Origin: Robiginitomaculum sp.
GTDB lineage: Bacteria; Pseudomonadota; Alphaproteobacteria; Caulobacterales; Maricaulaceae
Reading direction: 5' to 3'
Length of the DNA: 58,396 nt
NCBI GenBank assembly: GCA_016763315.1
Contig: JAESTZ010000021.1
Coordinates: forward strand, 1 to 58,396
The translations under genes were made by a program, and so were the position numbers. This document shows, piece by piece, positions 35,982 to 41,956 of the stretch. Each line of letters starts with the position of its first letter. The stretch's first letter is position 1. The notes below the pieces were generated by a model. The model was not told where the DNA came from. It made no database searches and was given only the letters and a program-made list of their open reading frames with translations.

Positions 35982-36983
35982 ATGACAATTCAAATCCAAA
36001 ATATAACTCTGGATAATCCTGTAGTTCTAGCCCCAATGTCGGGAATTAGTGATTTACCCTTTCGCAAACTAGTACGCAAGCTAGGTGCTGGCCTGGTGGT
36101 GAGTGAAATGACTGCTAGTGAATTGCTTGTGGCTGGTCGTAAAGATGTAGTTCGCAAAATTTCCAATGATGCCGGATCAGAACCATTTGTCGTACAATTG
36201 GCCGGTAGAGAAGCTAGGTGGATGGCCAGAGGAGCAAGAATCGCAGCTGATGCCGGAGCCCATATAATTGACATAAATATGGGTTGTCCGGCTCGTAAGG
36301 TGACAAAAGGGGCATCTGGTTCGGCCTTAATGCGTGATTTGGATCACGCACTCACGTTAATTGAGGCTGTGATTTCTGCGGTTGAAATTCCAGTAACTTT
36401 GAAAATGCGCTTGGGGTGGGATCATTCGAGTATAAACGCACCGGAACTCGCAAAGCGGGCGGAAGATGCTGGGGTATCTATGATTTGTGTTCACGGCAGA
36501 ACTCGTTGCCAGTTTTATAAAGGTTCAGCTAATTGGTCGATGGTTAGGCAAGTCAAAGAGGCTATATCAGTGCCGTTGCTGGTTAATGGGGATATATGTT
36601 CAACCAAAGATGCTCGGACAGCTTTAGACTTGTCAGGTGCGGACGGGGTAATGATCGGTAGAGCAGCTTGTGGCAGGCCGTGGCTTCCCGGGATGATTGC
36701 CGATGAATTAGCTGGTAGAGTAGGGCGGATCCCAACTCTGGAACAACAACTAGGTTACTTACTTGAGCAATTTACCGGAAGTCTTGAGCTATACGGCCCA
36801 ATAGCTGGAGTTAAAATGTTTCGTAAACATATCGCATGGACTATTGATGTGGCTTTCGGGGCAAAAACTAGCCCTGAGCTTATTGGTTTTCGTTCAACAG
36901 TTTGCCGTAAGAGCGATGCTATGGAAATTCGTGAAATGTTAAGTGAGCTATTTTATGGAAAACATGAACTGTCAAAATCATGA
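35982..36983 (+). CDS. dusB: tRNA-dihydrouridine synthase B
   Basis: A 333-aa FMN-dependent enzyme reducing uridines in tRNA D loops. [31 protein letters not shown] (catalytic Cys), [31 protein letters not shown] and [13 protein letters not shown] are in the usual order. ATG at 35982 gives the family start; the frame is open further upstream but without conserved sequence. It overlaps the next gene by four bases, the classical dusB(nifR3)-ntr arrangement. Confidence 0.95.
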
Positions 36984-38275
36984 ATAAAAAGTTGGTTATA
37001 TTGATAGCGGTCGGCAATCAATCCGGACGGGCGGATTTAGCAAAAGATATTGCTGCATTGGGCTATAAAGTGCGAGCAACTGATGACTTGTCAATTGTGT
37101 TGAAAATGACAAGTAAGGAACAATTTTCATTGGTTGTTCTTGATGTGGATTTATTTGATTCCGAGCGAAATGGTTTTGATGTTCTACAAGAAATAGTTCG
37201 TACTGTACCAAAGTGTCCAGTAATAGCCTTGGGAGGTGATAATACAGTTTTGGCGTCTTTATTAGCCTCTCGATTTGGCGCGATAGATTTCTTTGCCCGG
37301 CCATATAGTTTTTCTTCGTTGGCCTCGACTATTAAGAGTGCCTTGGTGAATCCTTCAAAAGAAGGCGCGGTAATTTCGAATGGCTCCATTGCTCCGTTGG
37401 TCGCTAAATCCAGTGCAATGCAACAGGTGATACGAGATATTACAAATTCTGCACGGTCCAGTTTGCCGGTACTAATTAGTGGTTCTTCCGGAAGTGGCAA
37501 GTTTTTGGCAGCTAACCTAATTCATAAGTATGGCAAGCTGATAAACAATAAATTGCACTGTTTTGTTCCAAGCACTGATTTAAACTTGTTAAATAATGTA
37601 AAGGCTGGCGACACTTTGGTGTTAAGGCGTTTGAATATGTTCTCAAAACAAAATCAGTACTTACTATGTGACTGGTTTGATGCAAATGAACGAACGAAAG
37701 TCCCTGCAAGAGTTATATCTCTTTTTTGCAATCAACCTGCAGTTACCACCGTGCCAAATGATATTATTCCTGAATTGTTAAGTAGGCTGCAAGTTTTGCA
37801 TATAGAGTTTCCTGATCTGCAACAGCGACGGGATGATATTAGTGAATTGGCTAGGGAGTTTATGGGACAAGCCTCAGGCTACCAAAAGACTTTAAATGAT
37901 GAAGCTATAGAATTGTTGTTAGTTCATTTTTGTAAAGGTAATGCTAGGGAGCTTAAAAATTTAATGTCGCGAACAGCTACCCAGTTTAATTCTCGTGTTA
38001 TTAACGCTTCACAAATCCGTCAATTATTAGAATATCAACTTAGCGTAAAAAAAACTAAACCAGACATTAGTTTAATGTTAGAGACCTTAGTGTCTACGCA
38101 AGTGGAACAAAAGAACTTATACCAGCATATTATCGATATTGTTGAAAAACCCTTGCTAGAAATAACGCTTCACCGGACAGGTAACAATCAGATTAGAGCC
38201 GCCAAATTGCTAGGAATAAATCGCAATACGCTTCGCAAAAAAATGCAACGGCATTTTTTATTACAAAAAAAGTGA
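36980..38275 (+). CDS. Degenerate NtrC-like regulator at the ntrC position
   Basis: A 431-aa protein with the NtrC layout. The receiver keeps a possible phospho-acceptor (Asp55 in LVVLDVDLF) but has VGN where the acidic pair should be, and ARPYS replaces the EKPF motif. The AAA+ part keeps Walker A (GSSGSGK, 168-174), but the segment to Walker B is about 30 residues short, so GAFTGA is gone, and Walker B reads DTLVLRRLN without Asp-Glu. The Fis-type HTH ([20 protein letters not shown]) is fully kept. It likely binds NtrC-type DNA sites but cannot remodel sigma-54 polymerase. The ntrB gene normally found before it is missing. Overlaps dusB by four bases. Confidence 0.85.
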
Positions 38276-38357: not shown

Positions 38358-40562
38358 ATGAGCGTGTACAGTAATACAAATCAGGTGGCCGAAAGGTTTT
38401 CGCGGCCACTTAACCTTTTATCCTCAGCTATCTTTGGCGCGCTTTATGCTCTGACAATATCAGTAACGGTTTTGTCTGCCTTTTTTGCTCTTTCTGGAGC
38501 AGGTAAATTAGGCCCCGCAAGTCAACCTTTATATTATATACTATTGTTTAATTTGATACTTATCATTGGCTTAGCCATTTTTATTGGTATTAAACTATTA
38601 CGGTTAATGCGTAAGTCTTCAACCGATGAATTTGCGCCACGACTTCATGTTCGTTTTGCAACATTATTTAGTGGCGCTGCAATTTTACCGGCAATCATTG
38701 TCGGTGTGTTTTTTGCAATAGTTTATTCGCAGGGTATAGAGAATTGGTTTTCACCAGTTGTCGAGACCGCTGTTAATAAAGCGGCCATAGTTGCCGAGGC
38801 TGCGTTCAATGCTGAACGTGACGAGGTTGTTAGCGAAATTAGGCCAATGGCAATTGACTTGAACCAGCCAGAAGCCGTGGAACAATTTGTTGGCGGACCG
38901 ATAATTTACACAAATTATCTACGCTTACAGGCTGAACATCGCTTTTTTCAATCAGCATACATCATTGATAATCACGGAACCATACTATCATTAACCGAAT
39001 TTGATGGAGCCCCTCCATTTGCAACACCAACGGTCGAGGCTTTCGAGGCCGCAGACTCTGGAAGTATAAACCTGCATTTTGAAAATGATCAAAACCTGAT
39101 ACGAGGGTTGTACAAGCTACAGTCTTATGAAAATGCGTATTTATACGTGGCAAGATACGCCACTAGCGGTAGCTTGTTGAACTTGGTAGAGGCGCAAAAT
39201 GCTAGGGTTGCTTACCGAGAAGCCAATTCACAGCGAGGGCGGCTTACCCGCTCTTTCGTTCTTGTTTATTTGGAAATCGCTCTATTGGTATTGATTGGTG
39301 CTGTATGGGTTGGGCTGGCTGCTGCAAATCAGGTAGTGCTGCCGATCGGAAGGCTGGCGCAAGCAGCACATCGAGTGCGTGACGGAGATTTGTCTGTACA
39401 ATTATTACCAAGCAGTCAAAATGACGAAGTCGCAAGCCTTACGCGTGACTTTAATGAAATGACTATTAGACTTGCGACCCAGCGTTCAGATTTAATTGCC
39501 GCGCACGATATGGCAGAACAACGCAGAAGGTTCATGGAAACTGTATTCTCCGGGGTGAGTGCAGGGGTGTTTGGCATCAACAGTGAACTGGACATAACAT
39601 TGGCAAATCTATCTGCATGTGAATTATTAAACCTTGATGCGGAAAAAATTGCTGGGAAAAACGTCTTGCAAGTTGCTCCGATTTTTAAGAGTTTGATTGA
39701 TCAGCTCGAAGATGCAGCTTTGAGTCCGATTCATAGTATCGTTGAGTTTGAAAAGAAAAATCAACAACTTATTTTGAATGTTATAATTACGCCCGATGGG
39801 GGTAATGGTTATGTAATTACTTTTGATGATATGAGTAAAATTGTTTCAGATCAACGTAGTGCCGCATGGAGAGAAGTCGCACGACGTATTGCCCATGAAA
39901 TACGTAACCCATTAACGCCAATACAATTGTCTGCTGAAAGATTGCGGCGTAAATACAGCAAAGAAATCACTACTAGTCCTGATGTTTTCGACAGGTGTAT
40001 CAATACAATAATTCGTCAGGTTGGCGACATAGGCCATATGGTTGATGAATTTTCGTCCTTTGCCAGAATGCCCCAGCCCAAGATTGAATCTGTCAATTTA
40101 GCTGACCTAGTTAAAGAAACCGCCTTTAGTCAGCAAGTTTCTTTTCCCGATGTTGAGATAACAACTGACGATTTAGATATGTCAATAATGGTTGACTGCG
40201 ACTCTAGGCTTTCTTCACAAGCGCTGTTGAACATCCTAAAAAACGCAGCAGAGTCAACGTCTTCAAGCATTGATGGACAAGCAAACCTGAACCCTCATGT
40301 GCGAATAAGAACTGCAAAGTTAGGCAAATGCGCACTGTTGGATGTCATTGATAATGGCCCTGGTTGGCCGAGTAATAATCGTCAAAAATTAACTGAGCCA
40401 TACTTTACAACCAGACAAAAGGGTACAGGTCTTGGCTTAGCAATAGTTAAAAGAATAATGGAAGACCATAATGGACAGCTTGAGCTGCTTGATAGAGATG
40501 ACGGTAAGACAGGGGCTGTCGCTAGGCTTATATTCCCGCGTACAAAACAGGAGGACAGTTGA
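38358..40562 (+). CDS. ntrY: NtrY membrane sensor histidine kinase
   Basis: A 734-aa kinase. Three or four hydrophobic segments lie in the first 330 residues with a periplasmic loop; a HAMP domain follows (ANQVVLPIGRLAQAAHRVRD), then PAS (around 390-480), HisKA with REVARRIAHEIRNPLTPIQL (phospho-His) and HATPase_c with NILKNAAES, VIDNGPGWP and GTGLGLAIVKRIMEDH. NtrY with NtrX controls nitrogen, redox and envelope genes in Alphaproteobacteria. The stop overlaps ntrX. Here it is the only intact kinase in the cluster. Confidence 0.95.
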   Translation: MSVYSNTNQVAERFSRPLNLLSSAIFGALYALTISVTVLSAFFALSGAGKLGPASQPLYYILLFNLILIIGLAIFIGIKLLRLMRKSSTDEFAPRLHVRFATLFSGAAILPAIIVGVFFAIVYSQGIENWFSPVVETAVNKAAIVAEAAFNAERDEVVSEIRPMAIDLNQPEAVEQFVGGPIIYTNYLRLQAEHRFFQSAYIIDNHGTILSLTEFDGAPPFATPTVEAFEAADSGSINLHFENDQNLIRGLYKLQSYENAYLYVARYATSGSLLNLVEAQNARVAYREANSQRGRLTRSFVLVYLEIALLVLIGAVWVGLAAANQVVLPIGRLAQAAHRVRDGDLSVQLLPSSQNDEVASLTRDFNEMTIRLATQRSDLIAAHDMAEQRRRFMETVFSGVSAGVFGINSELDITLANLSACELLNLDAEKIAGKNVLQVAPIFKSLIDQLEDAALSPIHSIVEFEKKNQQLILNVIITPDGGNGYVITFDDMSKIVSDQRSAAWREVARRIAHEIRNPLTPIQLSAERLRRKYSKEITTSPDVFDRCINTIIRQVGDIGHMVDEFSSFARMPQPKIESVNLADLVKETAFSQQVSFPDVEITTDDLDMSIMVDCDSRLSSQALLNILKNAAESTSSSIDGQANLNPHVRIRTAKLGKCALLDVIDNGPGWPSNNRQKLTEPYFTTRQKGTGLGLAIVKRIMEDHNGQLELLDRDDGKTGAVARLIFPRTKQEDS

Positions 40563-41956
40563 TGTCTGCTGATATATTGATTGTAGATGACGAAGAAGAT
40601 ATCCGTGAGTTAATAAGCGGGATATTGGAAGATGAGGGTTATCAAACCCGAACAGCAGCTAGTTCAGATCAGGCGCTGCAGGAGGTCCAGACAAGAAAAC
40701 CGGCGCTTGTTGTCCTAGATGTTTGGTTGCAAGGGAGTGATATAGATGGCCTTGGCGTGCTGGAAGAGGTAAAACGTCTTGATAGTTCTTTGCCTGTTAT
40801 TTTGATTTCCGGCCACGGAACAATAGAAACCGCTGTAGCGGCTATTCGTAAAGGGGCATACGATTTTGTTGAAAAACCGTTCAAGAGCGAGAGATTATTG
40901 TTACTAGTTCGACGAGCGCTTGAATTATCAAAACTAAAAAGGGAAAATCTCGCCCTTAAAGCCAAGGATGTTGCTAATATAGAGTTGATTGGTAATTCTT
41001 CAAAAGTTAATTCAATCCGACAAATCGTTCAAAAAGTAGCACAAGCAAACTCAAGAGTAATGGTTCTTGGTGGTATGGGGGCTGGAAAGGAAACTATTGC
41101 TCGAGCAATTCACTTACAATCGCATCGTGCTGATGGGGAGTTTGTAGTAGTAAATGCATCTACTCTTGATCCTGAATCTGTTGAGAGAGAATTGTTTGGA
41201 ATTGAAGATAATCGTGGAAGAACCACTAAAACCGGTTTGTTTGAACAAGCCCATATGGGCACCTTATATATTGATGAGGTAACAGATATGCCCCTGCAAA
41301 CACAGGGTAAAATATTGAGAATACTCGTTGGGCAAAGGTTCAGGCGTTTAGGGGGGCAGCACCCAGTAGATGTAGACGTTCGAGTGATCAGTTCCTCCTC
41401 AAGAAATTTGCAATCAGAAATTTCCTTAGGTAAATTCAGAGAGGATTTGTATCATAGATTGAATGTTGTTCCGGTTGTTGTGCCATCTCTAATTGAACGG
41501 CGAGAAGACATTCCCGATCTGGTACGTTTTTTTGCGGATAAAATCTGCACTAGCTCCGGGCTGGTCAAAAGAAAAATTGGCGATGATGTTATGGGGTGGA
41601 TGCAGGCGGCTGATTGGCCAGGGAATGTGCGGCAATTACGAAATTATGTTGAAAGGTTGATGATACTCGCTGATGGTTCTGGTGGACAGGTCATTACATT
41701 GTCACATATTCCGGATAATAACGAGACGACTAATGAACAAAGCGGAATTAGTGTGGAGCGTCTTGTCTCATTGTCTTTGCGTGAAGCCCGGGTTGAATTT
41801 GAACGAGAATACTTAAATGTCCAAATCAGTCGCTTTGGCGGTAACATTTCAAAAACAGCAAGTTATATAGGCATGGAGCGCTCTGCATTGCATCGCAAAC
41901 TTAAAACGCTCGGTATCGGTTCAAGCAGGAATTTAATTCCCGGAGAAGATGAATGA
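40559..41956 (+). CDS. ntrX: NtrX response regulator
   Basis: A 465-aa regulator. Receiver: LIVDDEEDIRELI (acidic pair), VVLDVWLQGSDIDG (phospho-Asp) and FVEKPF. AAA+: GGMGAGKETIARAIH (Walker A) and GTLYIDEVTDMP (Walker B) are intact, but GAFTGA is replaced by GIEDNRGRTTKTG, as in other NtrX proteins, which therefore need not act through sigma-54. Fis-type HTH near the end (NISKTASYIGMERSALHRKL). Overlaps ntrY by four bases and trkA by four. Confidence 0.95.
   Translation: MMSADILIVDDEEDIRELISGILEDEGYQTRTAASSDQALQEVQTRKPALVVLDVWLQGSDIDGLGVLEEVKRLDSSLPVILISGHGTIETAVAAIRKGAYDFVEKPFKSERLLLLVRRALELSKLKRENLALKAKDVANIELIGNSSKVNSIRQIVQKVAQANSRVMVLGGMGAGKETIARAIHLQSHRADGEFVVVNASTLDPESVERELFGIEDNRGRTTKTGLFEQAHMGTLYIDEVTDMPLQTQGKILRILVGQRFRRLGGQHPVDVDVRVISSSSRNLQSEISLGKFREDLYHRLNVVPVVVPSLIERREDIPDLVRFFADKICTSSGLVKRKIGDDVMGWMQAADWPGNVRQLRNYVERLMILADGSGGQVITLSHIPDNNETTNEQSGISVERLVSLSLREARVEFEREYLNVQISRFGGNISKTASYIGMERSALHRKLKTLGIGSSRNLIPGEDE

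Follow-up and report, generated by a model that had tools for sequence, protein, structure and literature searches.

What becomes of a nitrogen regulator when the gene for its kinase is missing is the question raised by a locus in the 58,396-nucleotide stretch of Robiginitomaculum DNA that was analysed here (the window). The first gene of the operon is dusB (35982..36983, plus strand; TIGR00737 above cut-off), and its final 4 nucleotides overlap the start of an open frame of 431 codons (36980..38275, plus strand), which encodes an orphan NtrC-like protein of 431 amino acids. This gene is followed by ntrY (38358..40562, plus strand), which encodes a membrane sensor kinase and is the sole kinase gene remaining beside it, by ntrX (40559..41956, plus strand), whose product is a strongly conserved response regulator (NF051870 above cut-off), and by trkA. 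Because the NtrC-like frame starts inside the end of dusB, within its final codons, ntrB is missing from the order dusB-[ntrB]-ntrC-ntrY-ntrX, as an earlier note on this DNA had claimed. The gene is an ntrC orthologue by its place between dusB and ntrYX, and TIGR01818 (ntrC) is the best NCBIfam family of its product, which scores 185.8 bits against an equivalog cut-off of 558.6 bits.

The loss of NtrB holds for the whole genus, which NCBI taxonomy places in the Maricaulales. When 61 genomes, among them that of the window, were searched, near-full-length NtrC-like matches came from all of the 17 other genus genomes except G001, and these 16 loci all lack ntrB, keep ntrY and have the same layout as the window. 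Outside the genus, ntrB is present at all 20 loci of more distant relatives, which were chosen for an NtrC match, and at 40/40 further loci of the family, picked for a match among 137 genomes; the count at the locus is thus 0/17 for the genus, including the window, versus 60/60 elsewhere. Genome-wide, NtrB was not found in any of the 18 genus genomes (best match 68 bits), whereas 29 of the 43 non-genus relatives among the 61 genomes have a match of at least 147 bits. Since the locus structure is repeated in 16/16 other genus loci and no NtrB was found in the genomes, neither chance nor misassembly accounts for it, and the same structure in 16 further genomes also rules out an assembly error as the cause of the missing GAFTGA region, a concern that had been raised for this gene. 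One genome, G001 (L156; 86% complete, 520 contigs), has a glnB site of the kind described below while its NtrC gene was not found, which may be a gap.

No second, intact ntrBC pair was found in the window's genome (2.52 Mb, 92% complete). Besides the NtrC-like gene and NtrX, its strong matches to the sigma-54 core (E <= 1e-58) are three GAFTGA-bearing proteins: one of 506 amino acids with a receiver, one of 457 amino acids beside flagellar genes, and one of 355 amino acids. We take the second to be FlbD-like, the third to be PspF-like and the gene beside the third to be PspA-like. Four further matches are weak (E 3e-6 to 6e-4). RpoN is present, and loss of sigma-54 is therefore ruled out as the cause of the changes at this locus. 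No earlier report of an NtrC lacking NtrB was noticed in a literature search limited to open-licence titles and the starts of abstracts.

Pfam divides the window protein into a receiver (residues 17-118), a sigma-54 core of type 2 (141-280), an AAA lid (282-357) and a Fis HTH (387-424; 38138..38251, plus strand). The HTH is kept, as claimed previously, and its best 15-residue stretch has a conservation of 0.88 in the genus. In an AlphaFold model (mean pLDDT 83.8, pTM only 0.58), the receiver, AAA+ core and HTH are folded, and confidence is low in the linkers 126-138, 253-259 and 359-378. The AAA+ core has lost what it had been said to lose. The GAFTGA motif, by which an enhancer-binding NtrC contacts sigma-54, is absent from the window protein, and 42 residues separate the Walker A Lys from the Walker B pair, versus 65 (counted by eye) in a GAFTGA-bearing NtrC, L078. 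Walker A (residues 168-175, GSSGSGKF; 37481..37504, plus strand) is retained, including Lys174 of GSSGSGK, and so are the Arg finger R269 and the sensor II residue R323; the Walker A Lys is present in 17/17 genus sequences. Of the two Walker motifs needed for ATP hydrolysis, the second is gone: Arg216-Arg217 (37625..37630, plus strand) replaces Asp-Glu and in the model directly follows the Walker B strand.

The earlier note read these losses as a switch away from a sigma-54 activator, and this part of its interpretation does not hold. GAFTGA is missing in all 77 sequences of the order that were examined (four families, window included), although 60 of them still have NtrB together with the five catalytic residues of the receiver, and its loss is therefore older than the genus. 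Because the motif is absent throughout the order, as published for Caulobacter and Rhodobacter, no sigma-54 activator was switched here. According to North et al. (2023; PMC10274813), the NtrC of Caulobacter crescentus likewise lacks GAFTGA and regulates sigma-70 promoters, activating glnBA and the glnK-transporter operon and repressing the operon that it shares with dusB and ntrB. Growth of Caulobacter on ammonium is reported there to need NtrB, Asp56, Walker A Lys178 and Walker B Asp235, whereas Robiginitomaculum has no NtrB, a degenerate receiver site and, in the window protein, no Walker B pair. The NtrC of Rhodobacter capsulatus also lacks GAFTGA and activates together with the housekeeping RNA polymerase, and ATP binding rather than hydrolysis is reported to be essential to it (Bowman and Kranz 1998, cited in PMC10274813); it differs from what is proposed for the window protein in that its activating role needs aspartyl phosphorylation (PMC10274813). 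Vibrio cholerae VspR, which lacks GAFTGA and keeps the conserved Asp, is described as acting at sigma-70 promoters with phosphorylation not required (PMC10274813). In its missing GAFTGA, the window protein agrees with the sigma-54-independent type known from Rhodobacter and Caulobacter.

The changes particular to the genus lie in the receiver (residues 5-120; 36992..37339, plus strand). In the window protein, Gly12 and Asn13 occupy the place of the acidic pair, whose absence had been noted before, and Gly85 and Arg107 stand for Ser/Thr and Lys; the acceptor Asp55 (37142-37144), which the earlier note omitted, is kept, and Asp57 lies at D+2. Receivers in which any of the five catalytic residues is missing are classed as pseudo-receivers, found in atypical response regulators (PMC12632262), and this one is without DD1, DD2, T/S and K and keeps D. 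The genus comprises clade A, the window's (seven sequences), and its sister clade B (ten). The acceptor Asp is kept in 17/17 genus sequences, the first Mg-binding acid (DD1) is acidic in 0/17 versus 60/60 of the other sequences, and D+2 is Asp in 17/17 and acidic in 0/60 of the others. DD2, the direct Mg ligand, is still acidic in 15 of the 17, the window protein and L055 having neither acid. The Ser/Thr position is Gly in 7/7 clade A sequences and remains Ser in clade B, and the catalytic Lys, also kept in clade B, is Arg in 4/17 genus sequences.

With one of the five catalytic residues left and no NtrB found in the genome, phosphorylation of the receiver is very unlikely in the window's species, which agrees with the phosphorylation independence proposed earlier. 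NtrY might instead have taken over as the kinase of a protein that is still a phosphorylation-switched NtrC. This would fit the constant acceptor Asp, the DD2 acid in 15/17 sequences, the Ser and Lys of clade B, and the position of ntrY as the next gene in the window and all 16 other genus loci; in three other bacteria, NtrBC is reported to interact with NtrYX (PMC9409073), and the same article cites a title on cross-talk towards NtrC in Rhodobacter capsulatus. We consider such a takeover unlikely, however, given that four of the five catalytic positions (both acids, Ser/Thr and Lys) are lost in the window's species and DD1 in 17/17 sequences.

The region of receiver helix alpha4 (residues 87-101; 37238..37282, plus strand) is the most conserved 15-residue stretch of the protein in the genus, with a conservation of 0.92 versus 0.60 in 17 NtrB-bearing sequences, the biggest gain of any such stretch. 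The genus sequences are closer kin than the comparison sequences, but kinship should lift all segments alike, and the five remaining segments of the receiver show differences of only 0.01 to 0.15, the genus having the higher value in two and the lower in three. In the NtrC family, the dimer is described as forming through the alpha4-beta5 surface (PMC12632262). We infer that the genus uses its receiver in one fixed state and does not carry it as a relic. In contrast to pseudo-receiver regulators in general, the change here falls on the same branch as the loss of the kinase and brings a D+2 Asp and a frozen alpha4. A speculative extension, which we think has a rather small chance of being right, is that the rebuilt receiver, with these two features, now docks or senses directly in place of NtrB, for example by binding PII (GlnB). 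If true, a two-component nitrogen switch would have turned into a one-component regulator in the genus.

The order of these events was examined on a tree of DusB, NtrX and NtrY from 37 NtrC-bearing sequences, in which the genus has a support of 100 and the ntrB state changes once, at its base. Since genera without both genes are not on the tree, NtrB has been lost in more lineages than this genus. Loss of NtrB together with a rebuilt receiver characterises the genus, and loss of Walker B the window's clade. In clade A, Asp-Glu has become Arg-Arg or Gln-Arg, with Arg at the Glu position in 7/7 sequences. If Asp-Glu is taken as ancestral, Glu changed to Arg three times or more, with clade A, g11 and the group formed by g5, g9, g13, g14 and g15 as separate cases. 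A single origin was rejected, as a tree that joins clade A to the other group with Arg is 126 log units worse (p-AU 2e-8) and one that joins it to L060 has p 5e-43 in the AU test.

Other genera of the family appear to have taken a different course. Walker B Arg is carried by 33 of the 60 non-genus sequences, all with ntrB, a fraction that is no rate because the sequences were picked for an NtrC match. Those of L060, L066-L070, L186-L204, L210, L218 and L220-L225 keep NtrB and the five catalytic receiver residues and have Arg at the Walker B Glu; Arg also replaces the Walker A Lys in 11 of the 33, and in L071. Presumably these proteins kept phosphorylation and lost the ATPase, the opposite order to that in Robiginitomaculum. 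Among 79 other alphaproteobacterial loci, Walker B is Asp-Glu in 48/48 that bear GAFTGA, and 10/31 without GAFTGA deviate from it (p = 3e-5, uncorrected for relatedness). The drifted pairs (ED, DG, DN, EE, EQ) are those of L082, L100, L102, L105, L118, L119, L123, L134, L146 and L154.

Sites of the NtrC type, which the earlier note invoked, are indeed still conserved in the genus. A 17-bp palindrome, TGCCTAA-N3-TTAGGCA, occurs with at most 2 mismatches upstream of glnB in 14/18 genus genomes, and glnB adjoins glnA, the gene of glutamine synthetase, in 17 of the 18. The core TGC-N11-GCA is present within 250 bp of glnB in 16/18 genus genomes, in 18 of 29 such regions from 28 genomes with NtrBC, to which G027 contributes two, and in 1/16 non-genus genomes without NtrB; the difference between the first and last of these has p = 2e-6, uncorrected for relatedness. 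In those 16 genomes, the absence of NtrB comes from the search and that of NtrC, in 12, from the lack of a full-length match; glnA lies beside glnB in 10, and for G019 the upstream region covers 146 bp only. Another, weaker copy that matches at 7 or more of 14 bases lies 21-22 bp upstream in 14 of the 16 genus regions tested. The exact core is absent at glnB in G015 and G016, both of clade A, and the glnB cores of G012 are at least 4 bases off the consensus. Conceivably, another factor such as NtrX binds the palindrome and the NtrC-like protein does something else, as NtrX also has a Fis HTH and is the better conserved protein. We regard this as highly improbable: at least 9 of the 16 NtrB-less non-genus genomes have adjacent NtrY-like and NtrX-like matches, yet 15/16 lack the glnB site, and the palindrome stands at known NtrC core targets with a half-site spacing that we take to be that of enteric NtrC sites.

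A strict form of the pattern, TGCYTA-N5-TARGCA, gives 30 sites in the 18 genomes versus 8 for its reversed control. When positions were compared by hand, 12 of these sites fell at glnB, 10 at dusB, 5 at amtB and 3 inside ORFs; because the pattern was suggested by the glnB sites, those at dusB and amtB are independent support. With at most 2 mismatches, the site is present at amtB in 8 of the 11 genus genomes in which this gene was found, and upstream of dusB, over the protein's own operon, in 10/10 clade B and 0/7 clade A sequences. There is no site at the second amtB-like gene of G015 or at the amtB of three clade A genomes. amtB was not found in the window's genome (G000), G001, G003, G004, G008, G009 or G017, which incompleteness may explain in part. 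The window has no own-operon site, its best candidate having 6 mismatches, and the one strict site of its genome lies outside the window at glnB (C26:101452-101468), where it counts by this position only, since the reversed control also has one match in this genome. The targets match the published core NtrC regulon of glnA, amtB, glnBK and ntrB-ntrC (PMC5343134), and the HTH together with the putative sites at glnBA points, like the locus, to an NtrC orthologue.

A wide regulon is unsupported in the window's genome, where the 2-mismatch pattern has 9 matches versus 10 in the reversed control; in 9 of 13 genomes tested, out of the 18 of the genus, it exceeds the control by at most one match. 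It surpasses the control in G002, G003, G007 and G009. The clade B genomes G002, G003 and G007 have the 2-mismatch palindrome at about two to four times the control frequency, and may have a wider regulon.

The placement of the sites bears on the sign of regulation. In the window's genome, the proximal glnB palindrome ends 5 bp before a sigma-70-like promoter, TTGTTT-N17-TATAAA, and in clade B the dusB palindrome comes just after the -10-like element that follows TTTACA-N16 (both judged by eye). The former suggests an activator position and the latter a repressor position, and together they suggest that the protein activates glnBA and, in clade B, represses its own operon, both of which Caulobacter NtrC does. 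The earlier note thought of a repressor or architectural factor at old NtrC sites, a reading in which the protein would have no activating role. The repressor position at clade B dusB fits such a protein, and Caulobacter NtrC represses its own operon and is reported to share many sites with GapR (PMC10274813). At glnBA of the window's genome, however, the tandem palindromes lie just upstream of the sigma-70-like promoter, the repressor position occurs only at clade B dusB, and the own-operon site is absent in the window's clade, so we judge a purely repressing or architectural role to be improbable. Both the binding of these sites by the NtrC-like protein and its regulatory sign are what we infer from sequence.

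The intact reading frame had been taken as an argument for selection, and selection on the gene is indeed purifying, yet it is also relaxed. The frame is open in 17/17 genus sequences. Its dN/dS is 0.134 between the window and L040, where NtrX has 0.023, and 0.121, 0.103, 0.113, 0.081 and 0.142 in five other genus pairs (a range of 0.08-0.14 overall), versus 0.021-0.036 for NtrX in the same six pairs. By domain, it is below 0.45 wherever a value was obtained. The constraint is called relaxed because these values are larger by a factor of 9 to 16 than the 0.009 found for NtrC in the one control pair with NtrB; all are rough, since they come from simple counting and four of the six comparisons of the gene have a dS above 0.9.

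Relaxation after the loss of NtrB, together with degenerate glnB sites in three clade A genomes, could mean that the gene is heading for loss and that its sites are relics. NtrB is also missing in 14 of the 43 non-genus relatives, one of them only 73% complete, and was not found in any of the 12 genomes searched from g3, g4, g7 and g17. In G019, G020, G023, G033 and other NtrB-less relatives, NtrB and probably NtrC too seem to have been lost, in several genera that belong to the family or the order. Impending loss is nevertheless very hard to reconcile with an open frame in every genus sequence, with a dN/dS far below 1 in each domain valued, with the strong conservation of alpha4 and the HTH, and with a site that is kept here and nearly always absent from NtrB-less genomes outside the genus.

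We therefore favour, with moderate confidence, an orphan, sigma-54-independent NtrC that still serves the core regulon of nitrogen genes and probably does so with neither phosphorylation nor ATP hydrolysis. An ancestor inside the order would already have been without the sigma-54-contacting GAFTGA loop, judging from its absence in all sequences examined of four families. As the comparison with NtrB-bearing sequences shows, NtrB was deleted in the ancestor of the genus and the receiver was rebuilt, with the first Mg-binding acid lost, the D+2 Asp gained and alpha4 made near-invariant. With the change of Walker B in the window's clade, the retained Walker A may still allow ATP binding, and hydrolysis is not expected because Asp-Glu has been replaced. 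Held phosphorylation-independent, and probably constantly dimeric, the protein would bind the tandem palindromes at the glnBA promoter and most likely activate this sigma-70 promoter by contact, as the location and position of the sites suggest. Relatives would employ this site at amtB too and, within the sister clade, in a repressor position over the promoter of their own operon. Without NtrB, the nitrogen signal must arrive otherwise, or the protein must be constitutive.

What was a classic switch thus seems now to be a DNA-binding regulator of a simpler kind. The genus and its relatives would offer ordered intermediates in which a two-component, ATP-driven activator is stripped down to a DNA-binding regulator with its core targets unchanged: an order without GAFTGA, a genus without NtrB and with a rebuilt receiver, and a clade without Walker B. 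In other genera of the family, a parallel series has the Walker B Glu changed to Arg and NtrB kept. Both series let one ask what regulation at sigma-70 promoters requires of NtrC, part by part, and what role a pseudo-receiver has after its kinase is lost.
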